Assembly: GCF_025717535.1 (NCBI RefSeq)
Contig: NZ_JAJIRO010000006.1
Span: 62,001-126,000 of the forward strand
Source: Paucibacter sp. Y2R2-4
Lineage (GTDB): Bacteria > Pseudomonadota > Gammaproteobacteria > Burkholderiales > Burkholderiaceae_C
Reading direction: 5' to 3'
Length of the DNA stretch: 64,000 nt
Both the position numbers and the translations under genes were made by a program. Numbering within the stretch: the first letter of the stretch is position 1; each line of letters begins with the position of its first letter. This document shows positions 3,121 through 33,670 of this stretch, in pieces. Below the pieces are notes generated by a model. The model saw only the letters and a list, made by a program, of their open reading frames with translations. It ran no database searches and had not been told where the DNA came from.

Positions 3121-3147
3121 AGTCGAGCCGAAGTCGAACTGAAGGGC

Positions 3148-3987: not shown

Positions 3988-4218
3988 TTGGTCATATTCG
4001 CATGGCATGCATTGAACGCCAAGCGCAATTTGCTGGCGTGTAGCGACGCTTCGGTTTAGAGCCGGGCTAGAGCCGATCTTGAGACAGGCTTAAGCCAATC
4101 TTGCGCAAACGCTGAGGCATGGGCGGCGATAGTGGCGGGACCCAAAGACCCTGGCCTGCACCACGCAGGCGGGTCAAGGCGACACACGGCCTTGTGGCCC
4201 TCCAGAGACTCCCAAGCC

Positions 4219-5013: not shown

Positions 5014-5097
5014 TCCATCGCCCAGGGCTTGCAAGAAGGCTTGACCTCTTCAGAGCTGCGGGCATGATGCCAAGCATCGATCTTGAGTTCTTGGTGG

Positions 5098-6798: not shown

Positions 6799-6851
6799 AA
6801 GGCCAGGGGTGAGAAAATCGCCGATTGCTCACCCCAAGTTTGGCCCGCCCC

Positions 6852-8102
6852 ATGTTCACCGATCTGATTCCCGATGCCGCCCCGCCGGTCGCCAAGGCCG
6901 ATGCCAGCGTGCGCTTTTTGCGCCTGCTGGAGACGGCGCTGGCCAATGGCACATTCAGCCGGCTGCTGCTGAGCAAATACGTCGGGGCCGAGGCGCAGCT
7001 GGAGCGGCTGACGCTGCGCGAGGTGAGCTTGCGCGGCGAGCGGCACCTGAGCTTTTTGTGGCGTTATCAAACCCGCGACATCACCAAGAACTTGCCCTTT
7101 GCTGAGGCTTTGCAGCAGGTCGGTGGCTTGCTGGGCACGCAGTTCCACAGCGCGCATTTGCAAACCCAGCAGGGCGAAGAAGTGCAGCTGGTGTTCAGCC
7201 GCAAGGGCCGCCCCAGCCTGCGCATGGGCAAGGTGGCGCCGGCCGCGCAGCCGGTGGTTGCCGAAGTGGGCCATGACAAAGAAAAGCATCGTTACTTGGA
7301 GCTGAGTCGGCCCTTCTGGCTGGACCTGGGCGTGACGCATCAGGTGCGCAGCGCTGGCGAAGAGCGGCCCCAGCTGGTGCCGGCCATGTCGCGCAAGTGG
7401 AAGCAGATCAACAAGTTCATCGAGATCTTTGCCGCGGCGATGAAGAGTTCTGGCCTGGTCGACAGCCCCGATGTGCATGTGGCCGATTTCGGCTCCGGCA
7501 AGGGCTATCTGACCTTTGCCATGCATGACTGGCTGCGCAGCCAGGGCAAAGATGCGCAGGTCACCGGCGTGGAGCTGCGTGACGATATGGTCAAGCTCTG
7601 CGGCGCCGCCGCCGCCAAGCACCAGATGACGGGCTTGCGCTTTGACCAAGGCGATGTGCGCAGCTACACGCCGTTGAGGCTGGACGTCATGATCGCCCTG
7701 CATGCTTGCGACATCGCCACCGACTACGCCATTCACTTTGGTCTGCGCGCGGGTGCCAAGGTCATCATGTGCTCGCCTTGCTGCCACAAGCAGTTGCGGC
7801 CGCAGATGCAAACGCCCACGCTCTTGCGCCCCTTGCTGCAACACGGCATCCACTTGGGCCAAGAGGCCGAAATGGTGACCGACGGCCTGCGCGCGCTCTT
7901 GCTGGAAGCCGAGGGCTATGACACCCAGGTCTTCGAGTTCGTGGCCCTGGAGCACACCAGCAAGAACAAGATGATTCTGGCCGTCAAGCGCAGCCAAGCG
8001 GTGTCGGCAGCGCGCCGGGCCGAGCTGCTGGCGCAGATCGACGAGATCAAGCGCTTTTACGGCATTCAGGAACAGGCACTGCAAGCCTTGTTGGCGGCCT
8101 AG
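6852..8102 (+). CDS. Class I SAM-dependent methyltransferase (Methyltransf_32-like)
   Basis: A 416-residue cytoplasmic protein. The cofactor site is clear: motif I is HVADFGSGKGYLTFAM (residues about 208-223), followed by VTGVELRDDMVKLC, LRFDQGDV and DVMIALHACDIATDYAI. A conserved CSPCCHKQL segment lies near residue 310. This pattern (acidic post-I, ALHACD, PCCHK) matches the Methyltransf_32 group that includes METTL25-like proteins. The N-terminal 180 residues are a separate domain. The target molecule is unknown; an RNA or protein substrate is possible. It lies 53 bases after the CorA-like gene on the same strand and may be co-transcribed. A TTG at 6825 is an alternative start. Confidence 0.8.
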   Translation: MFTDLIPDAAPPVAKADASVRFLRLLETALANGTFSRLLLSKYVGAEAQLERLTLREVSLRGERHLSFLWRYQTRDITKNLPFAEALQQVGGLLGTQFHSAHLQTQQGEEVQLVFSRKGRPSLRMGKVAPAAQPVVAEVGHDKEKHRYLELSRPFWLDLGVTHQVRSAGEERPQLVPAMSRKWKQINKFIEIFAAAMKSSGLVDSPDVHVADFGSGKGYLTFAMHDWLRSQGKDAQVTGVELRDDMVKLCGAAAAKHQMTGLRFDQGDVRSYTPLRLDVMIALHACDIATDYAIHFGLRAGAKVIMCSPCCHKQLRPQMQTPTLLRPLLQHGIHLGQEAEMVTDGLRALLLEAEGYDTQVFEFVALEHTSKNKMILAVKRSQAVSAARRAELLAQIDEIKRFYGIQEQALQALLAA

Positions 8103-8224
8103 TCGGCTGAGTGCCTGGGGCCCGGCAAGGCACAATGCGGCGCAACGGTCTGCCGGCCTGCGCACTTCCGCGCGGCACAAACTCAAAGCCCTAGTTAAGG
8201 CCCTTTCTTCATGCGAGCGAAGTG

Positions 8225-8290
8225 ATGGATGGATCTGCGCCTCAAGCGCTTGTGCAACTGCTGCAGAAATTGCTGGAAATCCAGTCCTGA
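8225..8290 (+). CDS. Possible 21-residue leader peptide coupled to the TonB/TolA-like gene
   Basis: A short frame, MDGSAPQALVQLLQKLLEIQS, runs from ATG 8225 to TGA 8288-8290. Its stop overlaps the ATG of the following gene as TGATG (8288-8292), a standard coupling geometry. A still shorter frame (ATG 8211, four codons) ends in a second TGATG whose ATG is 8225. The peptide would be a mostly hydrophobic, amphipathic helix. This could be a regulatory leader or a chance arrangement; nothing beyond the overlap geometry supports it. Confidence 0.3.
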   Translation: MDGSAPQALVQLLQKLLEIQS

Positions 8291-10191
8291 TGAGACCGGC
8301 GGGCGTTGAGGTGCGGCTCGAAGCCGGGCTGCAGGGGCAAACACGGCGGGTCAGTACGTCGTTGCTGGTCTCCTTGCTCGCGCATGCCTTGCTCTTGAGC
8401 CTGAGTTTTGGCGGCCAAGGCATGGGCTTGCCGGGCCTGGATTTGCCCTGGCAAAAGCGCCGCTTGGCGGCCGATGACATCCAGGTTCGGCTGCAGCCGG
8501 CGCCGCCCAAAGCGCAAGAGGAGGCAGACCCTTCGCCAACTGCCCCGGAGTCTGCTGCGCCGCCCGAGCCGCCCGCCAGCGCAGCGGGCGAGTTGCAAGT
8601 TGTCGAACTGAGTGTTGCCAAGGCATTGCCCCGCGTGGTTCCCGCGCGTGCGGCGCTCGGCAAGACCGACGATGTTTTGGTCTCGCCGTCTGCAGATCCA
8701 TTGCCTGAAGCCCAGTCTGACGCACAGCCTGAGGCGCCTGTGGCGCCCGCCGCCCCGGCCTTGCTGGCCCTGGATCAGCCGGATCTGAATCGCTGGCGTG
8801 TGCCCAGCCCGCCCATCACTTCCGCCCCGGCACTGGCCGCCACAGCCAGCAGCCCGAGCGCCTCGATGCCAGACCTCAGCGCAGCTTATGCGCAGGCTTT
8901 GAAGGCCGAGAAAGAGGCGCAGCAGCGAGCCGAGGAGAAAGCGCAGGAGGAAGCTCAAAAGCTCGCGCGGGAACAGCGTGAACAAGCCGAACGCCTGGCC
9001 TTGCAACTCAAACAAGAGCGCGCCGAGGCCGAGCGGCGAGAGCAAGCGCTTCAGCAAGCCTTGCGGGCAGCGGCGGAACAGAAGCTGGAATTGGCGCGCC
9101 AAGAGGCGGCCCAGTTAGAGGCCGCGCGTAGGGAAGCTGCACGTGCCGAAGCTGCTCGATTGGAGGCGGCCCGTCTCGAAGCGCTGCAGCGTCAGGAAGC
9201 CGCCAAGCAAGCCGCGCTGCGGCAAGAGCTGGAACGGCAGGCGGCGGCCAAGCAGGAGTTGGCGCGTCTGGAGGCTGCCCGCGTGGAAGAGGCCCGCGCT
9301 CAAGCCGAGCGTTTGGACTTGGCTCGCCAAGCGGCGGCCAAGCAGGAGCTGGAACGCGCCGAGGCAGCTCGCCTGGCTGCCGCCAAGCAAGAGGCGGCAC
9401 GTTTGGAAGCTGCCCGTGCGGAAGCGGCCAAAGTCGAGGCGGCCCGCTTGGCCGCCGTGCAGCAGCAACAGCAACAAGAGGCTGCGCGGCAAGAGGCCGC
9501 CCGACAAGAAGCGGCAAAACAAGCAGCCGCTCGCCAAGAGGCGGTGCGACAGGAAGCGGCAAGGCAGGAGGCCGCCCGACAAGAAGCCGCTCGGCAAGAG
9601 GCCGCCCGTCAGGAGGCTGCCCGCCAAGAAAAGGCCAAGCATGACGCAGCCCGTGCGCAGCTGGACGCCGAGCGCGCGGAGCAAGACGCGCGTCGCGAAG
9701 CGGCCCGCCGTGCCATGGGGCGGCAATTGGACGAAGAAGCGGCCCGCCGTGATGCCGCAGCGGCCGCAGCAGCTCAACAGGCGCCGACACGGCCCTTGGC
9801 GTCCCAGGACACAAGGCCGCCACTTCCTTCGGCCAGCAGCCTGCGCCGCGGTCGCTTGTTTGGCCGCAGCGACCCGAATGCCGAGTTGATCCAGTACGCC
9901 GAGCTCTGGAGCCGGAAGCTCCAACTGAATCAGACCTTTGACATGGTCCGCGAGGCCGCCAAGAAGCCGCACCGCACGCCGCTGGTGACGGTGGCGGTGC
10001 GCAGCGATGGCTCGGTGGAGTCGGTCACTTTTGTGCTGTCCAGCGGTGTGGCCGAGATCGATGAGTCCATTCGTCGCATCATCCAGAGTCAGGCGCCGTA
10101 TCCGCCCTTCTCGCCGGCCCTAGCGCGTGAATTCGACGTCATCGAGATCCGCCGCAGCTGGGGCTTTGATACGGCGATTCGCTTGTATTGA
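8290..10191 (+). CDS. TonB/TolA-like energy transducer with long alanine-rich coiled coil
   Basis: A 633-residue envelope protein. One transmembrane helix (residues about 22-42) carries the S-x3-H motif (Ser28, His32) by which TonB and TolA contact ExbB/D or TolQ/R. A Pro/Ala linker follows, then a coiled coil of about 270 residues (about 200-485) built of EAAR/QEAAR-type units, as in TolA domain II. The last 110 residues (from SDPNAELIQYAELWSRK to the end) form a TonB/TolA C-terminal domain with the strands LVTVAVRSDGSVESVTFVLSSG. The role is inferred to be coupling the proton motive force to an outer-membrane process. It is longer than normal TonB (about 240) or TolA (about 420), and no exbBD or tolQR genes are adjacent. 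ATG overlaps the stop of a possible leader peptide. Confidence 0.8.
   Translation: MRPAGVEVRLEAGLQGQTRRVSTSLLVSLLAHALLLSLSFGGQGMGLPGLDLPWQKRRLAADDIQVRLQPAPPKAQEEADPSPTAPESAAPPEPPASAAGELQVVELSVAKALPRVVPARAALGKTDDVLVSPSADPLPEAQSDAQPEAPVAPAAPALLALDQPDLNRWRVPSPPITSAPALAATASSPSASMPDLSAAYAQALKAEKEAQQRAEEKAQEEAQKLAREQREQAERLALQLKQERAEAERREQALQQALRAAAEQKLELARQEAAQLEAARREAARAEAARLEAARLEALQRQEAAKQAALRQELERQAAAKQELARLEAARVEEARAQAERLDLARQAAAKQELERAEAARLAAAKQEAARLEAARAEAAKVEAARLAAVQQQQQQEAARQEAARQEAAKQAAARQEAVRQEAARQEAARQEAARQEAARQEAARQEKAKHDAARAQLDAERAEQDARREAARRAMGRQLDEEAARRDAAAAAAAQQAPTRPLASQDTRPPLPSASSLRRGRLFGRSDPNAELIQYAELWSRKLQLNQTFDMVREAAKKPHRTPLVTVAVRSDGSVESVTFVLSSGVAEIDESIRRIIQSQAPYPPFSPALAREFDVIEIRRSWGFDTAIRLY
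9463..9636 (+). repeat. 15-bp in-gene tandem repeat encoding QEAAR
   Basis: Within the TonB/TolA-like gene, about ten imperfect 15-bp units encode QEAAR (with AKQAA and QEAVR variants), preceded by a CAG/CAA run giving six glutamines. Third-codon positions vary between units, so the repeat is partly aged, but several units are nearly identical. Slippage here would change coiled-coil length in 5-residue steps. Confidence 0.75.
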
Positions 10192-10296
10192 GGGGTACTT
10201 TTTCACTCCGCACTTGCCCGCACTTGCAAAAGGCGAGCAAGTCGAAGAAGCTAGCGCGTCTTTTCCTTGCACCTGCAAAAAGCACGAGGAGCCGCC

Positions 10297-10602
10297 ATGC
10301 CTAACTTTGTCACCGGACAGGAAATTTCGACTTCGGAGTCCAATGTTGAAGTCACCGTGACCCCCAGCAGTCCGCTGCCGCCGGGGCGACATAAGTTTCA
10401 GCTGGTGGTGGTGGACGACTCCGGCAATCAATCGGAACCGGCGACCGTCGAGATCGTCGTCATCGACGACAAAAAGCCCACCGCCGTCATTGATGCGCCG
10501 GCCACCGTGCCCTTTGGCGCTTCATTCAAACTCTCGGGGGCGCGCTCCTCGGATCTGCCGCCAGGCAAGATCGTGCGCTACCAGTGGCTGCGCCTGAGCT
10601 GA
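10297..10602 (+). CDS. Small Ig/PKD-like domain protein
   Basis: A 101-residue protein whose sequence resembles a single beta-sandwich: VEVTVTPSSPLPPGRHKFQLVVVDDSGNQS, then ATVEIVVIDDKKPTAVIDAP and ending KIVRYQWLRLS. The GRHKFQLVVVDDSGN pattern resembles PKD or Ig-like repeats found in larger extracellular proteins, yet no signal peptide or membrane segment is present, so it may stay in the cytoplasm or use a non-classical export route. The start at 10297 is supported by CGAGGAG seven bases upstream. The function is unknown. Same-strand neighbours are the TonB/TolA-like gene and the DUF1428 gene. Confidence 0.65.
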   Translation: MPNFVTGQEISTSESNVEVTVTPSSPLPPGRHKFQLVVVDDSGNQSEPATVEIVVIDDKKPTAVIDAPATVPFGASFKLSGARSSDLPPGKIVRYQWLRLS

Positions 10603-10628
10603 GGCCTCTGAGTGGTGGAGTCGCTGAT

Positions 10629-10985
10629 ATGGACTATGTGGACGGATTCGTGATCGCCGTGCCCGAGGCAAACAAAGAGCGCTATCGCGCTTTTGCTTCC
10701 TTGGCCGCGCCTGTCTTCAAGGACCATGGGGCGCTCAGCGTTGTGGAATGTTGGAGCGATGATGTGCCTGAGGGCACGCTGACCTCGTTCACGATGGCAG
10801 TTCAACGCAAGCCCGATGAGGCGGTGGTGTTCTCTTGGATCACTTGGCCGTCCAAAGAGGTGCGAGACCGCGGCATGCCGGCCGCGATGCAAGACCCACG
10901 CCTGAGCGGCGTCGATCCGAGTCAGCTGCCTTTCGATGGCAAGCGCATGATCTTCGGCGGCTTCAAGGTGCTGCTGCAGGCCTGA
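10629..10985 (+). CDS. DUF1428 (YbaA-like) family protein
   Basis: A 118-residue cytoplasmic protein of the DUF1428 family, a ferredoxin-like (dimeric alpha-beta barrel) fold. Diagnostic parts are MDYVDGFVIAVPEANKERY, HGALSVVECWSDDVPEG, VVFSWITWPSKEVRDRG and the C-terminal FDGKRMIFGGFKVLL. E. coli YbaA is the known relative, also of unknown function. GGAG at 10617-10620 places the start at ATG 10629. Length and motifs are normal for the family. Confidence 0.88.
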   Translation: MDYVDGFVIAVPEANKERYRAFASLAAPVFKDHGALSVVECWSDDVPEGTLTSFTMAVQRKPDEAVVFSWITWPSKEVRDRGMPAAMQDPRLSGVDPSQLPFDGKRMIFGGFKVLLQA

Positions 10986-11040
10986 TCAGGCCCGTGATTC
11001 AATTCAGTGAGTTCTCAACACCTGTTTGGAGGAGCCCCGC

Positions 11041-11256
11041 ATGTCCGACTCAGCCCCCGTCAAAGGGCCCGCATCCTATTTCCCGTCGATCGAGAAAAAG
11101 TATGGCCAACCGATCGAGCATTGGTTGAGCTTGGTCGCGGGTTTGCAGGGCATGAAGCATATGGAGCGCGTGGCTTGGCTGAAGTCCGAGCATGGCCTCG
11201 GGCATGGCCACGCCAATGCCATCGTCGCCCATGTCATGGCGAAGGATGCCTCTTAA
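11041..11256 (+). CDS. DUF4287 domain protein
   Basis: A 71-residue protein matching the DUF4287 domain: YFPSIEKKYGQPIEHWLSL, then a helix with WLKSEHGLGHGHANAIVAH. Proteins with this small helical domain often carry an additional DUF5655 part; here the domain stands alone. TTGGAGG ends about eight bases before the ATG, a strong ribosome-binding site. The cellular role is unknown. It is the last plus-strand gene before the convergent copper locus. Confidence 0.8.
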   Translation: MSDSAPVKGPASYFPSIEKKYGQPIEHWLSLVAGLQGMKHMERVAWLKSEHGLGHGHANAIVAHVMAKDAS

Positions 11257-11283
11257 GGCGGGCTTGGTCTGGGTTTGAAAAAA

Positions 11284-11315
11284 AGCCCCCGGCGGAACGA
11301 AGTCGGCCGGGGGCT
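11284..11315 (-). terminator. Strong Rho-independent terminator, minus strand
   Basis: AGCCCCCGGC (11284-11293) pairs perfectly with GCCGGGGGCT (11306-11315). Read on the minus strand the stem is followed directly by a run of T (seven A on the plus strand at 11277-11283). It therefore best terminates leftward transcription from the copper operon, 456 bases beyond its last stop codon, and may act weakly as a two-way terminator for the DUF4287 gene. Confidence 0.75.
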
Positions 11316-11771
11316 GTGAAAAGCGCGTGACGCTGCCCTGAGGACATGGCCAGCTCGATGCTCAATGATCAGGGCTGACTTGTAGGGCTGCAGCGTGGAA
11401 GACGTAGCAAAAACTGACTTGCGCTGGCAGTGCGTGGCGAGGCTTGCCGGTGAGGGCAGGCAGCCTGGGCGCTGTGAAACCTGGGGAAGAGACAGATAGA
11501 CAGAGACAGACAAAGACAGAGGGAGGCAGAAGCAAAAGCGCTGCTGAACTCTGGTGAGGCCTCAGGCTGCTGGTGCAGAGCCCGGACAAGGCATTCGCGC
11601 TTGCGCCAGTCGGGCGGGGTGGCAGTCGAGAGAGGTCTGAGGCCGTGAGTTCATGTTTCACATCTTCGCAGGCCGCGGCGTCTCAAATTCCTCAAGAACC
11701 GGGGGCAAATCGCGCCTGATTGTTGGCCGGTTTTCGCCGCCTTTTCTGAGCAATATGTCCGGGAGTTGGCT
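11316..11771. other. Intergenic stretch without a credible gene
   Basis: About 450 bases between the terminator and the end of the thioredoxin-like gene. No coding frame here has family resemblance or a ribosome site. The one notable part is a purine-rich tract at about 11488-11530 made of GACA/GACAGA repeats (pyrimidine-rich on the minus strand). If the copper operon is read to the terminator, this is its 3' untranslated region. Confidence 0.5.
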
Positions 11772-12311
11772 TCAGCGAGGCTTGCTGTCCAACCAGGCGC
11801 GCAACTCAGTGGCATCCGGCGGCCCGACGACGAATCGCGCCGCGGAACCGGGCTTCAGCAGGGCGATATAAGGAGTCATGCCGCGCCACTGCGGGTTGAC
11901 GGCATAACGCAGCGCGGCCGATTGACCCTCAAAAGCCATCAGACGATCAGCTTTGCGGTAGTGCGGATTGCTCAGCAGCGCCGCGTCATCAGTTCCCGGC
12001 TCTTGATCGATCACGACCGCAATGACGGGGACTTTCAAGCGCTGCCTTTGCCGGTTTGCCGCCAAATCTTGCAGAACGCCCGGGCAATGAACGCAATCGG
12101 TGCTGGAGAAGACCACGATGGCGGGCTGCTTCAACTGGGCTTGCAGTTGCTGCCATTCCTCGGCGCGAAAAGCTTCCACTTGCTTGGGCGCGGCCTGGGC
12201 GGCCAGCGAGAACAGGCTGGCCGCGACTGCGGCCCCAAGCCGGCGAGCCCAAACTCTTTGGCCCGAAGCCCGCGCTTGCCAATGCTTATCAGTGATGCAA
12301 TGAAATGACAT
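11772..12311 (-). CDS. Periplasmic thioredoxin-like protein of the copper locus
   Basis: A 179-residue protein with an N-terminal export signal (RRLGAAVAASLFSLAAQAA) and a thioredoxin-like core: PAIVVFSSTDCVHCPGVLQDL contains the CxxC pair Cys-Val-His-Cys. The following VPVIAVVIDQEPG and the cis-Pro-like MTPYIALLKPG fit the fold. It is shorter than DsbC-type isomerases. The start ATG at 12311 lies inside the end of the upstream Asp-box gene (23-base overlap), so the two are translated together. A role in reducing cysteines of copper-binding partners is inferred from context. Confidence 0.72.
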   Translation of the reverse strand: MSFHCITDKHWQARASGQRVWARRLGAAVAASLFSLAAQAAPKQVEAFRAEEWQQLQAQLKQPAIVVFSSTDCVHCPGVLQDLAANRQRQRLKVPVIAVVIDQEPGTDDAALLSNPHYRKADRLMAFEGQSAALRYAVNPQWRGMTPYIALLKPGSAARFVVGPPDATELRAWLDSKPR

Positions 12312-13560
12312 GGGTCTTCTCCGCCGTGCGCCACAGCGCGTAGATTCCGCTGCCGCCCGCCTCACGGCGCTGCAGCAAGCGAGGGTGGTCGTTGTCGGAG
12401 GCACTGCTGGCCAGCTCCTTCAGCTCAAAACTTTTGCCGCCATCCTTGGAGAGCCAAGCGCGCAAGCGGTGGAGTCGGCCATCAAAGCTGCGCCAAACGA
12501 TGGCCAGTTCTTCGCCGTGAGCCGCGAGGTCGGCATGCTCGGCGGCTTCGTCCGGCAAGGCGCGCACCACGCCCTGGGGACGGCCGTCCGGATCCAAACG
12601 TCCGTAACGCACTGCGCCCACGCCATCGCGCAGCCCAAACCAAACCGCGTGGTAGCCGCCTCGGGGCTCGTCAGGCACCAGCCCAGGCCCGTGGTGCGGG
12701 CAGCCATCGACCGCCCATTGGTCTTGGGTGGCGCGCTGCAGCGTTGGCGCTTCGCCTTGCAACAGGGCAAAAGCATGGTCGCGCTGGTTCGGCTCAAACA
12801 CATGGCGCCAGAGCGCTGCCATGCCGCCCTCGGGCGTGGGGCTCAGGGCGATGCGGCAGCACTCGCAGCTGTGGTCGGCCAGCTTCAGGTCTGGCCCGAA
12901 GCTGGCTCCGCCGTCCTTGGATTCGTTGCGATAAAGGGCCGCGCCCCGGTAGGCTTGTTTGCGAGCCTTGCTGCTTTCGATATCACGCTTGTCGATCCAG
13001 ACCGTGTGCAGCAGGCCCTGGGCATCAAAGGCGATGCTTTCGAAACGGTGCGTGATCAGTTGCCGGTCAGCATGCACGGTGACGGGCGCCGCAAAAGTCT
13101 GGCCGCCGTCAATGGAGCGCAGCAAGCGGATCTCGCCGGTATAGGGCTTGCTGAGCGGCTTGGTGTAGCTGATCACCCCCCAGTTTTTGGGGCCGTAAAA
13201 AGCCAGCTTGGGGCGGTTTTCTCCGTCCGCAGACACCGTGTCGGCGCCGATGTCCAAGAGGCGAAGCGCGCCCCAGCTTTGCCCCAGGTCTGCGCTGCTT
13301 TGAACGAACAAGCGACCCTGTGCGTCCAGCCCGGTGATCCAAAGATCGCCATTCGGTGCGAAGGCCGCGCCGGTGCCCAGAGCGATTTTCTTAGGCTTGG
13401 GAATGGGCTTGGACTCGGCCGGCTTCTCGGCGGCCGCTTGAGGCGCTGCGGCCGAAGCCGTCGTGCTGGCGTGCATGGCGTGCTGGGCCTGCGCTGCGGA
13501 CAGGCCCAGGCCCATCAGCGCAGCCGTCAGCCAGTTTCGGAGCAGTTGAAGTCTTCGCAT
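12289..13560 (-). CDS. Exported Asp-box (sialidase-like) protein with CECC motif
   Basis: A 423-residue exported protein; residues 1-25 (MRRLQLLRNWLTAALMGLG and AAQA) are a signal peptide. The body looks like a six-bladed propeller with Asp-box motifs: SSADLGQSWG, SIDGGQTFA, SKDGGASFG and SKDGGKSFE. Between blades lies DHSCECCRIALSP, a cluster of three cysteines that could bind metal. The catalytic Arg triad and Glu/Tyr of true sialidases are not evident, so sialidase activity is doubtful. It follows the TonB receptor by 16 bases and sits in a copper locus, so a copper-handling role is a reasonable inference. Confidence 0.72.
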   Translation of the reverse strand: MRRLQLLRNWLTAALMGLGLSAAQAQHAMHASTTASAAAPQAAAEKPAESKPIPKPKKIALGTGAAFAPNGDLWITGLDAQGRLFVQSSADLGQSWGALRLLDIGADTVSADGENRPKLAFYGPKNWGVISYTKPLSKPYTGEIRLLRSIDGGQTFAAPVTVHADRQLITHRFESIAFDAQGLLHTVWIDKRDIESSKARKQAYRGAALYRNESKDGGASFGPDLKLADHSCECCRIALSPTPEGGMAALWRHVFEPNQRDHAFALLQGEAPTLQRATQDQWAVDGCPHHGPGLVPDEPRGGYHAVWFGLRDGVGAVRYGRLDPDGRPQGVVRALPDEAAEHADLAAHGEELAIVWRSFDGRLHRLRAWLSKDGGKSFELKELASSASDNDHPRLLQRREAGGSGIYALWRTAEKTHVISLHH

Positions 13561-13576
13561 GGGCTGGGCCTTTCTC

Positions 13577-15991
13577 TCAGTAGCTGGCGCGCAGTTCGGT
13601 GAACACCGTGCGGCCAGGGTAGGGGTGGGCTTGGTAGCCGCGGCTGTCGAAGGCATTGTCCAGGCCCAGCGCCAATTCCAGCTTGGGGCTGAACTTGTAG
13701 CTGGTACGCAGGTCCACAAAGGTGAAGGAAGACACGCCGCCATAGACGTTCGGGTTCACATCGAGGTTATAGGCGTCGTTATAAGCCCGCCCGGAGTAGC
13801 GCACCCCCACGCTGCCCATCCAATGTCCGTCGGGCCGGTAGGCTGCCAGCACATTGGCTCGCACCTTGGGCACGCGCAGCCACCATTGGCCCACGCTTTG
13901 CGGGTCGCGAGCGTTGGCCACGACCTTGGAGTGCGCGAAGGCGGCGTTGGCGTCCAGGCTCAGGCCCTTGAGGAACAAGTCTTGGGTTTGCCAGACGAAT
14001 TCCACGCCATAGGTGCGCACACGATCAACGTTAGACACACGGGTCACGTTCGGCAGCACCGAGATGTCGGTCTGGCGCAAGATGCTGTCGCTGACCTCGT
14101 CGTGGAATAAAGAGACACGCAGGCGCTGCAGCTCCCAGTCTTGCTCCAGGCTGAACTCCAGTGCGTCTGAGCGTTCGGGCTTCAGGTTCGGGTCGCTCTG
14201 GGTTTGCGCGGTGGCGGTGACCGTGCCGTTGTACAGCTCTTCCACATTGGGGAAACGCACACCGCGCCCGTAGCTGGCTTTCAGCAGCGTATCGGGCAGG
14301 GCTTGCCAGGCCAGCGAGGCCTTGGGCGAGCTGCCGCTGAGTTTGCGGCTGTCGTAGGGCACGATCTTGTTGAAGCTGCCATCGCCTGTGGATTCACAGC
14401 TGAAACCGGCGGCCGGCTTGCAGCTGCTAATGCGCAGCAATTGCTCGCCGTCCATGCTGCGGAACTGCTCTTGGCGCAGACCCAGGGTCAGGGTGAGCTC
14501 GTCTTGCAGCTTCCAGGCGTCTTGCACATAGGCGGCAAAGACCTCGGTGCGGCCTCGGTAGCGCTGAGTCAGCACGGTTTCGGTATTGCGCCAGTCGCTG
14601 GCCGAGGTGCTGGGGCTGTCCAGCTGGTAGCTGTTGTGATGCAGACCCAGCACCAGGCTGTGGCGGCCCTGACCCCAGTCGCCGGCCACCGGCGTGTAAG
14701 CGGCTTGCACTTCAAAAGTGTCCCAGCCGGTGCCGTCGCGGCGCGTCCAGCTGCCGGCGCCGCCAACTTGCGCTTGCGGCTCGGGCATGTTGGCCTGGCG
14801 CGCAATGTCTTTCAGGATGCGGTAGTTGGAGTAAACGACCGAGGCGTTCCATCCGGTCGGGCGCTTGCTTTTGAGCGTCAGGCCGGCATGGCGGTGCAGC
14901 TCTTCGCGATTGGAGGGGGCAAAGGCCGTGTCGGGGATGACAAAGCGGTTCGTGCCGTCGCTGACCGTGCCGGACCATACGGTGTTGCCTGCCGAGTCAC
15001 GCAAAAAGGGGCGATTGCTGTTTTGCGTGTCATTGGTCCAAAAGCCCAGCATGGCACTGCCCAGCAGTTCGGGTGTGAAGGCATAGCCGGCCTTCAGCTT
15101 GAGGGTGTCTTGCACCGTGTGATCGATGGCGCCGCCGCTGGCGCCAAAGATGGCGCGGGCCTGGCCCTTGGGGTCGAGGTCGTACTGAATGCCGGTGACG
15201 CGCTTGTCGCCGGGCTTGGCCGGGTCGAAGCTGCCGGTCTTGGCATTGACGCCGGCGGTGTAGTAATTCATCGGCTGCGAGGTCGAGTCTTGATGGTTCA
15301 GCGTGGCGCTGAACCACAGGCCCGAATCCAGCCGGTTGCCCACATAGGCCGAGGCCTGGCCGCCCGCGTAGCGCTCAGACAAGCCGTATTGCGAGAAGCT
15401 CTGGCTGTAGCCGGTCAAGCGTGCCGAGGCTTCAAGTTTTGTGGGCTCACGCTCGGTGGTAACCACGGTGGTGCCGATCGAGTTGCCCGGGTAAATGGCC
15501 GAGAAGGGACCGTAGAGCATGTCTACCCGAGCGATGGCTTCGGGGGTGATCATGTTCCAGCGCGGGCCGTCAAAGCGGCCCAGGAAGTTGCTGATCAGGT
15601 AGCCGTCCACATAGGCCAGGCCGCGGCCCGGCTGCAAGGTGCCAAAGCTGCGGCCGCCGATCATTGAGTTGCGGTCGCCGATATAGCGCTTGCGAATGCT
15701 GGTGTTGGGCATGTACTTCAGCGCGTCTTCAGGGTTGAAGAGGTTCTGGTCGCGCAGGTCTTCGGCGGTCTTGCTGACGCTATTGCTGGGCAGGTTGGCG
15801 GCCAAGCCCGAACGCAGGGCGACGCCATTGACCAAGACCGGGGCGAGTTGGCCCTCGGTGGCGACGCCCTGGGCCTGGGCTTTTTGTTGAAGGCTGGTCA
15901 GGCAGAGCGTGGCGAGGGTCAGCGTGGCCAAGCTCTGGCGCTTGAGGCGAAGGGCAGGAAACGAATTGGTGGAGCGAGAGATTGAATACAT
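13577..15991 (-). CDS. TonB-dependent receptor, probable copper receptor
   Basis: An 804-residue outer-membrane receptor with a long signal peptide ending in QKAQA, a plug domain (PVLVNGVALRS, TAEDLRDQNLFNPEDALKYM, RGLAYVDGYLI, IARVDMLYGPFSAIYPGNS) and a 22-strand-type barrel ending in the aromatic residue of LRASY. It lies 122 bases after a DUF2946 gene and a PCu(A)C chaperone and before a CECC protein, an arrangement that matches copper-regulated receptors such as Bordetella BfrG. The start ATG at 15991 gives a normal signal peptide; a longer frame to 16060 is less likely. Copper (or a copper complex) as substrate is inferred from context. Confidence 0.85.
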   Translation of the reverse strand: MYSISRSTNSFPALRLKRQSLATLTLATLCLTSLQQKAQAQGVATEGQLAPVLVNGVALRSGLAANLPSNSVSKTAEDLRDQNLFNPEDALKYMPNTSIRKRYIGDRNSMIGGRSFGTLQPGRGLAYVDGYLISNFLGRFDGPRWNMITPEAIARVDMLYGPFSAIYPGNSIGTTVVTTEREPTKLEASARLTGYSQSFSQYGLSERYAGGQASAYVGNRLDSGLWFSATLNHQDSTSQPMNYYTAGVNAKTGSFDPAKPGDKRVTGIQYDLDPKGQARAIFGASGGAIDHTVQDTLKLKAGYAFTPELLGSAMLGFWTNDTQNSNRPFLRDSAGNTVWSGTVSDGTNRFVIPDTAFAPSNREELHRHAGLTLKSKRPTGWNASVVYSNYRILKDIARQANMPEPQAQVGGAGSWTRRDGTGWDTFEVQAAYTPVAGDWGQGRHSLVLGLHHNSYQLDSPSTSASDWRNTETVLTQRYRGRTEVFAAYVQDAWKLQDELTLTLGLRQEQFRSMDGEQLLRISSCKPAAGFSCESTGDGSFNKIVPYDSRKLSGSSPKASLAWQALPDTLLKASYGRGVRFPNVEELYNGTVTATAQTQSDPNLKPERSDALEFSLEQDWELQRLRVSLFHDEVSDSILRQTDISVLPNVTRVSNVDRVRTYGVEFVWQTQDLFLKGLSLDANAAFAHSKVVANARDPQSVGQWWLRVPKVRANVLAAYRPDGHWMGSVGVRYSGRAYNDAYNLDVNPNVYGGVSSFTFVDLRTSYKFSPKLELALGLDNAFDSRGYQAHPYPGRTVFTELRASY

Positions 15992-26529: not shown

Positions 26530-26693
26530 GGCAAAAGCTCCTGATAAGTCGAATGATCCTAGGGGTTTCGCATTCTCGGGGCTACGCCCAAGATCGCAGG
26601 CGGCCGTCGTCGGCGGCGCACCCTTCTTTTTTCTTTCTCAATCATTCACAACAAGCCGAAGGCCGCGCGCAATTCGGCCAGGAGACCCGCACC

Positions 26694-27629
26694 ATGGCAA
26701 GCAAAGTCACCCCGGCCAGCAAGGCCCCCGTTAAAACCAGCGCGGCCAAGGCGAATGCACTCTCGCTGCACATTGGCCTGAATGCCGTGGACCCGGCCGC
26801 TTATGGGGGCTGGGACGGGCCACTCGCGGCTTGCGAGTTTGATGCCAAAGACATGGCGGCGTTGGCCAAGTCACAAGGCATGAAGCCCACGGTCTTGCTG
26901 ACCAAAAAAGGCACGCGCGCGGCCACGCTGGCCGCCATGCGCAGCGCCGCCAAGAGCTTGAAAGCAGGGGACTTGTTCCTGATGACTTATTCAGGCCATG
27001 GCGGCCAGGTGGGGGATGTGAACGGCGACGAGCCCGACCACAAAGACGAAACCCTGTGCTTGTACGATGGTCAGCTGATCGATGACGAGCTTTACTTTGA
27101 GCTGAGCAAGTTCGCTGCCGGGGTGCGGGTTCTGGTCTTGTCCGACAGTTGCCACAGCGGTACGGTCACGCGTGACTTCCCGCCGCCCCCGCCTCCGGCC
27201 GGCCAACGCCCGCGTTTGATGCCAGCCGAGGTGGCGCGTCGCGTCTATGAGACGCACAAGAAGTTCTATGACGATCTGCAGCGCAAGGTCTTGGCGGAGG
27301 CCGCCAAGACCGTCGTCGACCCCGATGCCGCTTTGGCCCTGGTCGGCGGCGCTTCGCAGGCCACCGCCTTGGTGGGCAAATTCAAGCCATCTGTGGTCTT
27401 GATCTCAGGTTGCCAAGACAACCAGACCTCGATGGATGGCGAGCACAACGGCGCCTTTACCGGCCAGCTCTTGAAGATCTGGAATAGCGGCGCCTTCAGT
27501 GGCAACTACAGCAGCTTCCACAGCCGCATTCGCGCTGGCATGCCGCCCAGCCAGTCGCCCAACTTATTCCTGCTTGGTGATCAGGCGGCTTTGGCGAGCT
27601 TCATGAAACAGAAGCCCTTCACGGTTTGA
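26694..27629 (+). CDS. Metacaspase-like caspase-family protease
   Basis: A 311-residue C14-type cysteine protease. The catalytic dyad is visible as His102 in [13 protein letters not shown] and Cys153 in [15 protein letters not shown]. Between them the acidic stretch [15 protein letters not shown] resembles the acidic pocket of metacaspases, which cut after Arg or Lys. A Pro run (PPPPPP) follows the Cys strand; the last strand pattern [13 protein letters not shown], with [12 protein letters not shown], completes the fold. There is no signal peptide or extra domain, so it is probably cytoplasmic. The ATG has AGGAGACC upstream, the same octamer found before the next gene. The next gene, 104 bases on, also carries a caspase-like (CHAT) domain, suggesting a joint system. 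Confidence 0.9.
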
Positions 27630-27733
27630 ATTGACCCGAGTGACCCAAGGGCCGTGCGTGCCAGCAGCGCCGCGGCACTCATTGCTGCGACTACCCCGCC
27701 TCCATCAAAAAGAGCCCCTAGGAGACCCAAGTT

Positions 27734-30700
27734 ATGGCCGAGCCGCAGATCACCCTCAAACTGAACGGTCGCCCTACCGCGCGGCTGCAACTGCCCGCCT
27801 TGCTGACCCCGGCGGCGCGCTCCGCCGAGCGGCGCGATGATGCTTTCCTGCCCGAAGGCTATTTGCAGCCACTCAGCGCGTTTGACATGAGCCCGGCGGC
27901 GCGCAGCGCGGAAGGCCTGCCCTTGGCGCAAAGCCATGCCGCCGCGCCCAATGAGGTCTTGGTGCTGGAGTTGGCCGATGGCAGCTGCCTGATTACCAGC
28001 GCGGCGCGTTTGCGGGCGACCTTGCAGCAAACTCATCCCGAGCTGATCGGGGAAGACGGCGAAATCTTGCTGGAGGCCTTGCGTGCCCAAGGCGCAGCGC
28101 CGGGTCGCGGCTTGGGCGAGGCGGTGGGCGGGCTGATCAGCAAGGTCTTCAGCTTCGCGGTGGGGGCGGCGCCCGATGCCATCATCGACGCGGCGCTGGG
28201 CGAGCTGAAGAACAAGGCCGAGCTTGGCGTCAGCTGGGCCGGCACCAAGGCCTTGATGTGGGCCATTGAAAAGCAGCTCTCGCAAGCACCGGGTCTGTAC
28301 CGCTGGGTCTCGGCCACCGGCAAGCCGCAAGATTTGGAACCGGTTGATTTCGAACGCCAGCCGCCTGCGGGGGCGATGCTGGTCTTTGTGCACGGCACAG
28401 GCTCCAGCACCCTGGGCAGCTTTGGCGAGCTGCGCAGTGGCGACCGTGACTTGTGGGGCACGCTGCAGGCTCGCTTCAGCGGTGGCATTTACGGCTTTGA
28501 GCATCGCACCCTGTCGCAAAGCCCAATCGAGAACGCCATTGATCTGGTCCGCGCTCTTCCGATGGGTGCCCAGGTCTGTCTGGTCTCTCATTCGCGCGGA
28601 GGCCTGGTGGCCGATCTGCTGTGCTTGGGAGACTTTGACGCCTTGATTGACCGTTATGCCTATGCCTTCAAAGGCACGGGCGATGCCGATGCCGAGGAGG
28701 CCAAACGCGTCATCAAGGAGTTGGAAACGGCCCATGCGGAACAACGCGCGCAGCTGCGCACCCTGGCCGGTTTGTTGCGCGAGCGCCAGATCGTGGTGCA
28801 GCGCTATGTGCGCGCCGCTTCGCCGGCCAGCGGCACCAAGTTGGCCAGTGGCAATTTCGATGTCTTTTTGTCTGGCCTGCTGAGCTTGATTGGCACGGTG
28901 CCTTTCTTCTTCGGCAGCCCTTGGTATTCGGCCTTCAAGCGGGTGGTGATCGAGATCGCCAAGAACCGCACCAATGCCCATTTGGTGCCGGGCATCGAGG
29001 CCATGCTGCCCGACTCGCCGATGGCGCGCCTGCTGCGCGATGCACCGGTGCGGCCGGGCACGGCGATGTCGGTGATTGCCGGCGATATTCAGGGCGGCCA
29101 TCTGTTGCGCCGGCTTGGCGTCATGCTGACGGACTTTCTGCTCTTCGACAATGACGACAACGATCTGGTGGTCAACACCACCGCCATGCTGGCCGGCATT
29201 GCGCCCAAGTCTGCGGCACGAGTTTTGTTTGATCGCGGGGCGGATGTTTCGCACTTCCGCTACTTCGTCAATATCGACACCCGCGCCGCCCTGCGCGACT
29301 GGCTGGTGGTAGCGCAGCCGCTGGAGCTGAGCAGCTTCCGGCCCTTGCCCGATCCGGCCGATTACGAGGCGGCGCTCGCTGCAGCCGGGGCCAGCCGCAG
29401 TGTCGGCGCGGCCGACCGGCCGGTGGTGGTGGTGCTGCCGGGCATCATGGGTTCGCATCTGCGTGTTGGCGCAAAAGACCGGGTTTGGTTCGACCCGGGC
29501 GATATCGCCACCGGCGGCTTGGCCAAGATCGAGTGGTCGAAGCCCACGGTGGAGGCGGATGAGCTGTTCGCCATGTTCTATGGCCGGGTCTGCAAGCACT
29601 TGGCCGACAGCCACCGGGTCGAACCCTTCCCTTATGACTGGCGCCAGCCGCTGGATGTCTTGGCCGAGCGCTTGGGGGAGTTCCTGGATCGACTGATGCA
29701 ACAGACCCAGCAACCGGTTCGCTTGCTGGCGCACAGCATGGGCGGCTTGGTGGTGCGGGCCTGCATTTACAAGCGCCGCGCGGTGATGGATCAACTGATG
29801 GCGCGCGAAGGCTCGCGCTTGCTGATGCTGGGCACACCTCACCAGGGCGCGCACTCGATGGTGGAGAACTTGATTGGCAAGGGCGCCACCTTGCGCACCC
29901 TGGTGCGCTTGGACCTGACACACGATATGCAGCAGGTGCTGGACATCATTGCCGGCTTCCGCGGTGCATTGCAGCTGCTGCCCAAGCCGGGCTTTCAAGA
30001 TCAGTTCCAGGGCCAACCCGGGGGCGGAGCCAGTTATGCCTATCAGCAGGCGCAAACCTGGTTGACGCTGAAAGAGAAGGTCAGCGATTTCTGGTTCGGC
30101 GACCAATTGGCCGGCACGCCCGCTCAATCGGTGCTGGACTCAGCCAGCTGGTTGTGGGCGCAAGACGGCTCCGCCCAGCCGGCTCTGCCCGCCGCCTACG
30201 AAACCAAGAGCATCTATATCTTCGGCCAGGCGCCCAACACCCCTTGTGGTCTGTGCGAAGAAGGTGGACGCTTGAAGATGGTGGGCACCTCGCGGGGCGA
30301 TGGCACGGTGACCTGGGCCTCCGGGCGCATTGGTGGCATCGGGCGGCAGTACTACATGCCGGCGGCGCATGGCGATCTCTTGTCGACCAGCGCTCACTTC
30401 GTCGCCATCACCGAGCTGCTGAACTCGGGCGCCACTTCGGGTCTGAGCGCGCAGCCGCCTAGCAGCCGAGCGATTGAGCAAGCCCAGCCGCTCATCTACG
30501 ACGCCGGCCCGCCCAATGCCGATGACCCCGATGCCCTGATGCGCGGGCTGATGGGCAGCTCAGCGCGCAACCGGGTGCCTGCGCGCACGCAGCGGCGGCT
30601 CGAAGTGGCCGTGCGCGCCATGGACCTGCGCTTTGTCAGCGACCCCATCATGGTCGGGCACTACGAGCGGGACCCCATCGCCGGCGCCGAGGCTTTGATC

Positions 30701-33670
30701 GACCGCGAGCTCTTGAACCGAGAGCTCAGTGAGCGCCACAGCCTTGGCCTTTACGCCGGCGCGCGCGGCACGGCGGCCGTGGTGCTGCGGGTGCGCGGTG
30801 ACTTTGAGCGCAGGTTTGGAAGCCTGAGTGGCGCTGTGGTCACCGGCCTGGGCTCTTATGACCGGGCCTTGAGCCCGGCCGATTTGACCGAGGCGGTGCG
30901 CACCGGCGCCTTGCGCTACTTGCTGCAAGTCATTGATGTCTTGGGCAAGGCCGACCGCGAGGTGCCGCTGTCCAGCTTGCTTCTGGGCTATAACTCCTCG
31001 GCCAATCTGACCGTGGCGGCCTCGGTGGAGGCTTTGGTGCGCGGCGTGATGGAGGCGAATGCGCGTTTTTATGCCGCCACCCGTTTGAACATCCGCATCG
31101 CCCGGCTGGACATCATCGAGCTCTATCTGGACACCGCCATCGGCGCCACCTATGCCTTGCGTGCCCTCAGTGGGCAGCTGGCGGCGCAGGCCGAAAAACA
31201 GGGCACGGCGCTGCTCTGTCAAAGCGAACTGCAGCAAGGAGAAGGCTTCCGGCAGCGACTCTTTGACGATGGCAATTCCAGCTATTGGCCGCGTTTGATC
31301 ATCACCGATGCCGAGCGCAGCGAATCGCAGAACCCGGTGGTTCCGGGGGCTGCCCCCTTGGCCGACAAGCTGCGCTTTGTGTTCGTGGGGCAGCGGGCTC
31401 GCGCCGAGTCGGTAGCCCTGCAGCGGCAGCCTGGCTTGATCGAGCAGATGGTGGCGCAGCAAATCGGCAATCCAATCTGGAACGAAGACTTCGGCCGCAT
31501 GCTGTTCCAGCTGATGGTGCCGCATGACTTCAAGGATGCTGCGCGTCAGCTCGACCGCGTGGTGTTGGTGGTGGATGGCTACACCGCCAATCTGCCCTGG
31601 GAGCTGATGTTGGCCGATGACCCGGATCGCCCCTCCGAAGAAAAGCAGCCGCTGGCCTTGCGCACGGCGGTGGTGCGCCAGTTGTCGGCGCAGACCTTCC
31701 GGGCCACGGTGCACCAAAGTGTCTTGCGGCAGGCCCTGGTGATCGCCAATCCCTCGGTGGCAGGTTTCGCCAAAGGCTTCCCGGTCTTGAATGGCCAGCC
31801 GACTCAAGACCCGCCGGATCTGCCGGGCGCTCAGGCCGAGGGCGAGGCCTGCCAAGAACTCTTGACCAGCATGGGCTACCAAGTCGAAGCGGTGATCGGC
31901 AGCTTCAACAAAGCCAGCGATGTGCTGGCCAAACTCTACGCCAAGCCCTGGCGCATCCTGCATATCTCGGCCCACGGCCTGTTTGACTTGCCGCATGCCG
32001 ATGGGCGCCGCCGCAGCGGCGTGCTGCTGTCCGATGGTTTGCTGATCACGGCGGCAGAAATCATGGCCATGGAGACGGTGCCTGAGCTGGTGTTCTTGAA
32101 CTGCTGCCATCTGGGTCAGGTCGACAGCGGCGCGCAAGGCCCTGGCAGCAACAAGTTGGCGGCCAGCGTGGCGCGCGAGCTCATCGCCATTGGCGTGCGC
32201 TGTGTGGTGGTGGCGGGTTGGGCGGTCAATGATGAGTCGGCCCGCCTGTTCGGCGAGGTCTTTTATGCACAGCTCCTGTTGCGCCGCCATTCCTTTGGCG
32301 ACGCGGTGTTCAGTGCCCGCAAAGAGGTGTGGAAGCACCATCCCGAGGACATCACCTGGGGCGCTTTCCAAGCCTATGGGGACCCTGTCTGGTTGGCCGA
32401 GCCGGCGGCGGAAGGCGGCCTCGGCGGCGGTGCAGCCAGCCGCTATGTGTCACCCGACGAGATGTTGGATGAGTTGGCCCGCTTGCGCTCTGACCTGGCC
32501 CGGCGTGGCGACGATCTGGGCTCGCGAGCCTTGCAAGCGCAGGTTGATCGGGTTGCCGATGCCTTGGCGCGTCGCTGCCCGGCGGGCTGGCAACAAAACC
32601 CGCAGCTGCAATATGCGCTGGGCCAGACTTGGTTTGATCTGGGCCAGTGGGAGCGCGCGCGGGCCGCCTTTTTGAGTGCCGCGCAAGCGGTGGACCGCAT
32701 CGGTGGTGTGCCTATCTCTGATCTTGAAAAGCTGGTCGATGTGGAGTCCCGTTGGGGCGAGGCTCGCGCGGTTCAGGCGCTGGGGCCGGCCTTGGCCGGC
32801 GACCGAGCGGCACAGCAGCAATTGCGGGCTGCCGAGGCCTTGATCGATTTGGCCCTGCGTCGCTTGGATGGGCTGGACGCTTTGGTGGTCAATGGCGATT
32901 GCGGCCCTGATGGCGAGCCGCTGCTGCCCCAAACCTCGATGCACAGTGAACGCACCGCCTTGCGCGGCGCTGCTTGGCAACGCAAGGCCAATTTGCAGGC
33001 GCGGCGAATGTTGAGTGGTCAGCTGGACACGGCGGCACAGGACTTGGCCGCCAAAGCGATGGCGACTTGCCTGCAAACCAGCGTGGAGGCTTACCGTGCC
33101 GGCGAAGGGCAGCCAGGGTCCGAGCATTTCAGCCCCTGCCATGCCTTGTACCGGCTGGCCCTGGATGCCTTGACCGATTGGCCCAGCCCGGCCGAAAAAG
33201 ACGCCGCCCTCGAGCTGGCCCAGCAATGCCGGCGCGCGGCTGCGCAGAACTTCGCCATGCAGCCCAGCCCCTGGGACTTGCTGATCCAGCCCGAGGCCTT
33301 GTTGGTCGAGCGCTTGATTGATGGTCAGCTGGGGCGGGCTGACGAAGAAGGGCGGCGCTGCTTCGAGGACTTGTCGTCCAGCTATGCCGAAGCACTGGGC
33401 TGCGTGACGGTGCGGCCACTGCAGCTGCAGGCCATGGTGGACCGATTGGAGCGACTGTCCCGCTTTGTCGATGCTTCGGCGCTGGCGCAGCATGACGACG
33501 AGGCGCTGAGCCGCACGGCGGACCGCCTGATCGCCTTGGCGCAAAGCCTCATGCCCGGCCACGCCGCGCGCAGCGACAGACCGCCCAAGCTCAGTGCCCG
33601 CACAAAGGCCAAGGCCCCGCGGGCAAAGCCGAAAGGGAAGCAGCAAGCCAAGAAGAATGCCAAGTCCTGA
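27734..33670 (+). CDS. 1978-residue fusion of two alpha/beta hydrolase domains with a CHAT protease domain
   Basis: Domains in order. A beta-rich N-terminus (1-200). A first hydrolase: MLVFVHGTGSS (oxyanion region, about 215-225) with nucleophile Ser287 in VSHSRGG. A second, LCAT/PDAT-like hydrolase: VVLPGIMGSHL (about 566-576), FPYDWR, nucleophile Ser668 in LLAHSMGG, LGTPHQGAHS, then Asp856 in GDGTV and His879 in AAHGDL, a complete triad. A middle region. A CHAT domain with His1414 in HISAHGLFD and Cys1458 in FLNCCHLGQ (C-x-x-G), plus CVVVAGWAVND. A helical, TPR-like C-terminal part (about 1600-1930) and a Lys-rich tail. Lipase plus protease in one chain, behind a metacaspase, suggests a defence or regulated-death effector; this is inference. 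AGGAGACC precedes the ATG. Confidence 0.88.
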   Translation: MAEPQITLKLNGRPTARLQLPALLTPAARSAERRDDAFLPEGYLQPLSAFDMSPAARSAEGLPLAQSHAAAPNEVLVLELADGSCLITSAARLRATLQQTHPELIGEDGEILLEALRAQGAAPGRGLGEAVGGLISKVFSFAVGAAPDAIIDAALGELKNKAELGVSWAGTKALMWAIEKQLSQAPGLYRWVSATGKPQDLEPVDFERQPPAGAMLVFVHGTGSSTLGSFGELRSGDRDLWGTLQARFSGGIYGFEHRTLSQSPIENAIDLVRALPMGAQVCLVSHSRGGLVADLLCLGDFDALIDRYAYAFKGTGDADAEEAKRVIKELETAHAEQRAQLRTLAGLLRERQIVVQRYVRAASPASGTKLASGNFDVFLSGLLSLIGTVPFFFGSPWYSAFKRVVIEIAKNRTNAHLVPGIEAMLPDSPMARLLRDAPVRPGTAMSVIAGDIQGGHLLRRLGVMLTDFLLFDNDDNDLVVNTTAMLAGIAPKSAARVLFDRGADVSHFRYFVNIDTRAALRDWLVVAQPLELSSFRPLPDPADYEAALAAAGASRSVGAADRPVVVVLPGIMGSHLRVGAKDRVWFDPGDIATGGLAKIEWSKPTVEADELFAMFYGRVCKHLADSHRVEPFPYDWRQPLDVLAERLGEFLDRLMQQTQQPVRLLAHSMGGLVVRACIYKRRAVMDQLMAREGSRLLMLGTPHQGAHSMVENLIGKGATLRTLVRLDLTHDMQQVLDIIAGFRGALQLLPKPGFQDQFQGQPGGGASYAYQQAQTWLTLKEKVSDFWFGDQLAGTPAQSVLDSASWLWAQDGSAQPALPAAYETKSIYIFGQAPNTPCGLCEEGGRLKMVGTSRGDGTVTWASGRIGGIGRQYYMPAAHGDLLSTSAHFVAITELLNSGATSGLSAQPPSSRAIEQAQPLIYDAGPPNADDPDALMRGLMGSSARNRVPARTQRRLEVAVRAMDLRFVSDPIMVGHYERDPIAGAEALIDRELLNRELSERHSLGLYAGARGTAAVVLRVRGDFERRFGSLSGAVVTGLGSYDRALSPADLTEAVRTGALRYLLQVIDVLGKADREVPLSSLLLGYNSSANLTVAASVEALVRGVMEANARFYAATRLNIRIARLDIIELYLDTAIGATYALRALSGQLAAQAEKQGTALLCQSELQQGEGFRQRLFDDGNSSYWPRLIITDAERSESQNPVVPGAAPLADKLRFVFVGQRARAESVALQRQPGLIEQMVAQQIGNPIWNEDFGRMLFQLMVPHDFKDAARQLDRVVLVVDGYTANLPWELMLADDPDRPSEEKQPLALRTAVVRQLSAQTFRATVHQSVLRQALVIANPSVAGFAKGFPVLNGQPTQDPPDLPGAQAEGEACQELLTSMGYQVEAVIGSFNKASDVLAKLYAKPWRILHISAHGLFDLPHADGRRRSGVLLSDGLLITAAEIMAMETVPELVFLNCCHLGQVDSGAQGPGSNKLAASVARELIAIGVRCVVVAGWAVNDESARLFGEVFYAQLLLRRHSFGDAVFSARKEVWKHHPEDITWGAFQAYGDPVWLAEPAAEGGLGGGAASRYVSPDEMLDELARLRSDLARRGDDLGSRALQAQVDRVADALARRCPAGWQQNPQLQYALGQTWFDLGQWERARAAFLSAAQAVDRIGGVPISDLEKLVDVESRWGEARAVQALGPALAGDRAAQQQLRAAEALIDLALRRLDGLDALVVNGDCGPDGEPLLPQTSMHSERTALRGAAWQRKANLQARRMLSGQLDTAAQDLAAKAMATCLQTSVEAYRAGEGQPGSEHFSPCHALYRLALDALTDWPSPAEKDAALELAQQCRRAAAQNFAMQPSPWDLLIQPEALLVERLIDGQLGRADEEGRRCFEDLSSSYAEALGCVTVRPLQLQAMVDRLERLSRFVDASALAQHDDEALSRTADRLIALAQSLMPGHAARSDRPPKLSARTKAKAPRAKPKGKQQAKKNAKS

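Follow-up and report, generated by a model that had tools for sequence, protein, structure and literature searches.

A metacaspase and a giant CHAT protein with two lipase-like domains in Paucibacter: a candidate protease-gated lipid attack pair

Described protease systems and the Paucibacter locus

What bacterial metacaspases do in nature is, to our knowledge, largely open. SAVED-CHAT of type III CRISPR activates a caspase-like protein in its cascade. Caspase-superfamily peptidases and alpha/beta-hydrolases are encoded together in the VMAP (MoxR-vWA) ternary conflict systems, for which a joint action has been proposed and in which, according to a passage of the same report, the caspase always has an alpha/beta-hydrolase gene as neighbour (PMC7159879). 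TPR-CHAT (Craspase) combines CHAT with helical repeats, and passages of its description present a protease that is off until a signal arrives, as well as CHAT substrates that are encoded nearby (PMC9729208). In the nuclease-protease pairs of Hachiman, AVAST and Lamassu, as outlined in part of the corresponding report, a proenzyme effector is activated by the linked protease (PMC12799240).

The window, i.e. the whole stretch of 64,000 nucleotides analysed here, encodes a metacaspase (P0001) and a giant protein (P0002) whose genes, both on the + strand, are separated by 104 bp. Their features are the following.

26680..26687, + strand: AGGAGACC, ribosome-binding site of the metacaspase gene (octamer counts, relatives' starts)
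26694..27629, + strand: metacaspase (C14) of the GSU0716/3bij type, 311 aa (Pfam, nearest solved chain, His102/Cys153)
27720..27727, + strand: AGGAGACC, ribosome-binding site of the giant gene (octamer counts, relatives' starts)
27734..33670, + strand: giant protein, 1978 aa, with lipase 1, lipase 2, M17-N-like region, CHAT and TPR-S-like repeats
28331..29323, + strand: hydrolase 1 (DUF7379; about residues 200-530), triad Ser287/Asp477/His507
29417..30448, + strand: hydrolase 2 (LCAT/PGAP1-like, Pfam; about residues 562-905), triad Ser668/Asp856/His879
30545..30604, + strand: basic linker (K+R content), residues 938-957, at the junction of the lipase and CHAT halves; candidate metacaspase cleavage region
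30599..31303, + strand: M17-N-like region, about residues 956-1190, resembling the N-terminal domain of M17 aminopeptidases in some relatives
31490..32383, + strand: CHAT protease, residues 1253-1550, His1414/Cys1458
32447..33562, + strand: C-terminal helical repeats, about residues 1572-1943 (TPR-S in relatives; helical model)

Pairings of a caspase with an alpha/beta-hydrolase have already been published and, by analogy, the present pair is a variation on them. The joint encoding and the proposed joint action are those of the VMAP systems, as far as these are described in part of PMC7159879, but here two hydrolases, CHAT and the repeats form a single chain. VMAP/MoxR-vWA membership failed at the locus: Pfam named no MoxR, vWA or VMAP part among 12 window proteins (the metacaspase, the giant and 10 flanking ones). 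CHAT and helical repeats are shared with TPR-CHAT/Craspase, from which the giant differs by the C-terminal position of its repeats; the off state partly described for that protease would also apply here (PMC9729208). The predicted CHAT fold was closest to SAVED-CHAT (8tl0); lipases are fused to CHAT in the giant, for which Pfam gave no match to SAVED. In the Hachiman, AVAST and Lamassu pairs, as partly reported, the effector is a nuclease and the protease is trypsin-like, whereas here lipases stand with caspase-fold proteases (PMC12799240). No prior description of a CHAT-lipase giant with a metacaspase was found among titles and abstract openings, a coverage that takes in little of the subscription literature, so that an earlier account may exist.

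Domains, active sites and linker

A preliminary description of this locus had assigned a metacaspase with His102 and Cys153. The residues are as it claimed, and the caspase family match (Peptidase_C14, E 8.4e-21, Pfam) and the His/Cys dyad are both present in P0001. The nearest solved chain, 3bij of Geobacter ('Uncharacterized protein GSU0716'), belongs to the same subfamily (E 2.7e-85). The protein failed the test for the EACC1-caspase type (NF047832, 30.2 bits against a cut-off of 140). An Asp is found two residues before Cys153, which presumably fits a basic P1. NCBIfam gave no match over cut-off and PADLOC no strong match for either the metacaspase or the giant, the weak ones being caspase (E 2.9e-8) and BovA (E 0.004). 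Two CHAT and two C14 matches over cut-off were counted in the whole genome; the second CHAT match, at G000:C3:510422-511294 in a frame of 1144 aa, was stronger than that of the giant.

The 1978-residue chain with CHAT residues His1414 and Cys1458 was likewise recovered as previously claimed, and its DUF7379, LCAT and CHAT matches all exceeded Pfam cut-offs. Both CHAT membership (PF12770 over cut-off with His and Cys) and LCAT/PGAP1-like membership of hydrolase 2 (family match with the Ser-Asp-His triad) were found in the giant. Two hydrolases with a single full triad, Ser668/Asp856/His879, had been announced: this triad stands, but the count does not, as Ser287/Asp477/His507 is also complete. 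The latter was invariant in 33 of 33 aligned rows, while the triad of lipase 2 kept its Ser in 32 of 33 and its Asp and His in all 33; the CHAT His and Cys were kept in 32 of 32. Active sites varying freely among homologues, which the preliminary description had named as an argument against its reading, are the opposite of this near-invariance of catalytic residues among aligned giants. The giant at L048:6991-13128 has a lipase 2 that lacks both its Ser (HGMGG) and the LPG motif; its lipase 1 and CHAT residues are intact and no metacaspase is adjacent.

The two remaining regions were recognised mainly through relatives. An M17-N-like match was obtained for 6 of 32 rows at E<=0.1 (best 1.9e-4) and for L087 at E 6.3e-7, and TPR-S (PF20308) for 18 of 32 rows at E<=0.1 (best 2.5e-14); the window giant itself had no Pfam match to either. 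The model of its residues 900-1978 had an overall pLDDT of 58.5 and was good only in the repeats and in parts of CHAT, and the N-terminal model was of low confidence (pLDDT 51.8).

Metacaspases cut after Arg or Lys. Such cleavage is also stated for a wheat metacaspase, in the abstract of the work concerned. An Arg/Lys site between the lipases and CHAT had been named earlier as something to look for, and a K/R-rich linker was found, although the trend is weak: its K+R content averaged 24% in giants with a metacaspase in the genome or contig (n=25, including L048, whose sole metacaspase is a 999-aa C14 protein) versus 13% in the others (n=6, including L066 from G448, a genome outside the metacaspase survey; Mann-Whitney p 0.02, uncorrected), and the enrichment was absent in L054 and L058, both with an adjacent metacaspase.

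Association, partner exchange and distribution

Co-occurrence of the two genes was observed in three samples, three giant genomes being common to the order and family samples. Full-length giants, defined by a best piece of at least 300 bits, were present in 20 of 300 genomes of the order, and a metacaspase of at least 45 bits occurred in 15 of these 20 versus 8 of the 280 others (Fisher p 9e-16). In the family sample (120 genomes; giant at least 200 bits, P0001-like metacaspase at least 50 bits), the corresponding figures were 18 of 23 versus 2 of 97 (p 5e-15), the 23 including G705, with a CHAT protein whose match is confined to residues 962-1665. Within the genus (18 genomes), a metacaspase of the P0001 subfamily (at least 470 bits) accompanied 14 of 14 giants and was found in 0 of the 4 other genomes (p 3e-4), a result that depends on the threshold, since the weaker C14 matches of the giant-less congeners G681, G684 and G686 (53-59 bits) would pass the family's 50-bit line. 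All three tests ignore ancestry and use thresholds set post hoc. According to coordinates, the metacaspase adjoined the giant in 12 of 23 family genomes and was unlinked in 6; it adjoined the giant in 10 of 20 order genomes and lay elsewhere in the genome in 5. The adjacent cases include G049, with a gap of about 1 kb, and G187, with a downstream metacaspase. The metacaspase is not obligatory, since 5 of 23 and 5 of 20 giant genomes, respectively, had no P0001-like metacaspase over threshold. The pairing nevertheless goes beyond chance, given that the genome of the window has only two CHAT and two C14 matches and that the association recurs in other genomes, which bears out the gene pair that the preliminary description proposed to search for.

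Metacaspase His and Cys were both intact in 44 of 44 proteins from giant genomes or contigs versus 5 of 9 from giant-less genomes. This upkeep is taken as supporting evidence only, because only two genera account for the four losses, close relatives are counted among the 44 and the comparison covers a subset of C14 genes; two C14 proteins of about 1000 aa (L125 and L131) were left out of it and of the metacaspase tree. The stand-alone metacaspases L119, L120, L123 and L124, which lost His and/or Cys in giant-less genomes, are candidate pseudo-caspases.

Giants of Piscinibacter and of G264 were 58-64% identical to P0002, whereas their upstream metacaspase was only 32-34% identical to P0001, and the two metacaspase types were split in the metacaspase tree by a branch with support 100/100. 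In the giant tree, from which L065, L042, L043 and L039 (partial) were omitted, L035 and L046 were sister to the window-type giants (98) within a 12-row clade (support 100) that also contains L038 and L044. From the shared upstream place, the split metacaspase branch and the giant clade, it follows that, next to closely related giants, one metacaspase subfamily has taken the place of another. Taking adjacency, co-occurrence and exchanged subfamilies together, the view that the two genes act as partners appears well supported, at the level of comparisons uncorrected for phylogeny.

Three states were observed in the genus: ten genomes had giants 69-100% identical to P0002, four had giants at 34-35% and four had none. 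In the four congeners with a divergent giant, the metacaspase was unlinked to it and stood at the urate locus of the window, downstream of xdhC and the deacetylase gene; in L179 and L181, it directly preceded puuD, the place held by the giant in the window. The four giant-less congeners kept the deacetylase gene and puuD with neither gene of the pair between them. Since xdhC, GDPD and DinB were also without a match between deacetylase and puuD in these four genomes, the difference is not simply the removal of the pair. The giant and the metacaspase are thus accessory in the genus, where this metacaspase subfamily occurs only if some giant exists (18 genomes). As some of the species are close relatives, the three states may stem from few events.

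The relatives at 85-86% identity came from four Paucibacter/Roseateles and one uncultured Burkholderiales bacterium. Outside the order, a phylum scan of 398 genomes yielded one further giant of at least 300 bits (G448), and a different scan another one in Competibacteraceae (L045). Related giants were also plasmid-borne in Azotobacter, Ensifer and Paracoccus (31-32% identity over 69-75% of the query); the Azotobacter one adjoins a recombinase gene, with type I restriction-modification genes coming next. A phage or virus origin of the pair was rejected, since no relative was matched in phage records and none of 13 pattern matches in viral contigs was a relative. A tandem second giant, suspected in L157 from the length of an open reading frame, was discarded as well, this 2035-aa frame matching UvrA. 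A gene for a PLD-like protein (L045:11624-13972) lies 3' of the Competibacteraceae giant, and a large protein of 1081-1094 aa precedes the giant in Paracoccus (L083:5342-8584, L085:5244-8525); the L083 protein is without a Pfam match, and the L085 one matches a solute-binding protein.

Neighbourhood, proposed switch and alternatives

The 10 window neighbours scanned with Pfam were housekeeping proteins or had no assignment; urate, GDPD, DinB, XdhC and deacetylase genes are included. At 32 giant-bearing loci, 114 neighbour proteins were scanned with Pfam and PADLOC, as raw counts; 17 of 131 neighbours were omitted, including far-off ones and doubtful frames, and among them are four window proteins (scanned separately) and L046:2582-5566. 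The 25 listed of 133 Pfam families were mostly housekeeping, with TIR_2 in three proteins. PADLOC matched 38 families at E<=1e-10; the 25 listed match one protein each, and many are PD-T4-6 models. Enrichment in defence islands, which the preliminary description proposed to test, was abandoned as a reading: no such island was seen among the 10 window neighbours and the 114 of relatives, which are mostly housekeeping with scarce PADLOC or defence matches, and the pair has a fixed chromosomal position in the closest relatives of the window. TIR and nSTAND1 neighbours do occur at loci of some relatives: in three giant-bearing genomes, the unlinked metacaspase is immediately preceded by a TIR gene (G254, G224) or has one alongside it (G026); in L063, a TIR gene immediately follows the giant, and in L050 one lies no more than a few kb away. 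Such neighbours fit a conflict role without proving one, and the whole suggests the flavour of a conflict system outside any defence island; a defence or death function of the pair is plausible. Several atypical proteins were also noticed. Plasmid L086 of Rhizobium (1999-15886) encodes a CHAT/TPR-S protein with no lipase match between two TIR-nSTAND1-WD40 genes, LCAT-type lipases occur fused with a trypsin-like peptidase in L088:5839-8358 (Qingshengfaniella plasmid) and with CHAT in L087, and a second protein of 995 aa is encoded divergently beside the metacaspase-giant pair at L035:3637-6621 (-) and L046:2579-5566 (-), the L035 copy having a caspase domain (C14, E 1.6e-7) and the L046 copy being its relative.

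A protease-gated attack on lipids is suggested by the fusion of two conserved lipases to a CHAT protease that carries sensor-like repeats, and by a metacaspase maintained in parallel. We tentatively propose, at slightly less than even likelihood, that the two proteins form a cytosolic switch through which the cell damages its own membrane in a controlled way. The architecture, the conserved active sites and the association of the genes are observed, and from them we infer the order of activation, the cleavage site, the lipid substrate, the trigger and the purpose. At rest, the lipases and the CHAT protease of the giant would be kept inactive. The C-terminal TPR-S-like repeats, perhaps aided by the M17-N-like region, would respond to a signal by activating CHAT, and CHAT and the metacaspase would act in series; most simply, CHAT would cleave the metacaspase, which would then cut the Arg/Lys-rich linker of the giant. 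This cut would free or unblock the two Ser-hydrolases, and their attack on membrane lipids could lead to growth stop or cell death, plausibly in phage infection. A death circuit in which CHAT in cis and the metacaspase in trans gate two membrane lipases within one chain of 2000 residues appears somewhat doubtful. It would be a lipase counterpart of gasdermin, which is likewise protease-activated, with exchangeable metacaspase partners.

Another possible explanation can be based on housekeeping or stress lipid remodelling, the giant recycling membrane lipids as a regulated phospholipase or acyl hydrolase whose amount is tuned by the two proteases, with no suicide involved. The housekeeping surroundings of the loci, the fixed place in the closest relatives and the LCAT/PGAP1-like nature of the hydrolases would agree with such a role, which we nevertheless consider unlikely in view of the patchiness among species (neither a giant nor the P0001 subfamily is present in 4 of 18 congeners, which keep deacetylase and puuD with neither gene between) and of the plasmid location of some relatives; two caspase-fold proteases and sensor-like repeats would also be odd for a metabolic enzyme. 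The logic could also be reversed, the metacaspase being the toxic end effector, CHAT its activator and the lipases a means of making or sensing a lipid signal and not of damaging membranes. The partial CHAT protein of G705, which adjoins a metacaspase, and the lipase-less protein of L086 between its TIR-nSTAND1-WD40 genes point that way, as does the tendency of CHAT substrates to be neighbours, mentioned in part of PMC9729208. This reversal is quite improbable, given that conservation of the lipase triads is nearly as strict as that of the CHAT dyad; the lipase also seems tied to protease control, because LCAT-type lipases are fused with a trypsin-like protease (L088) or with CHAT (L087).

Finally, the two genes might be neighbours by history only, with no joint action, since they are adjacent in only about half of the giant genomes (10/20, 12/23), five giant genomes per sample have no metacaspase over threshold and three of the four giant-less congeners carry a weaker C14 gene. 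We regard this as very improbable: the genes co-occur even when unlinked, different metacaspase subfamilies take the same position, and the dyad is intact in 44/44 proteins with a giant against 5/9 without. The P0001 subfamily thus has a genetically inferred partner carrying its own protease and two lipases, which offers a concrete, testable hypothesis on the substrate of a metacaspase related to a protein of solved structure (3bij); if the proposed switch is true, lipid attack joins the list of protease-gated outputs.

Both genes had been said to share an octamer before their starts. The octamer is present at both sites, but its role as a regulatory element was ruled out in favour of an ordinary Shine-Dalgarno sequence, because AGGAGACC has five copies in the window (chance mean 1.08; five reached in 2 of 100 shuffles) and is only partly kept before the starts of relatives, some of which are absent from the comparison or mis-set. 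A sigma-70-type promoter-like site was looked for and none was found, and 12 terminator-like sites were counted versus a shuffled mean of 7.5.
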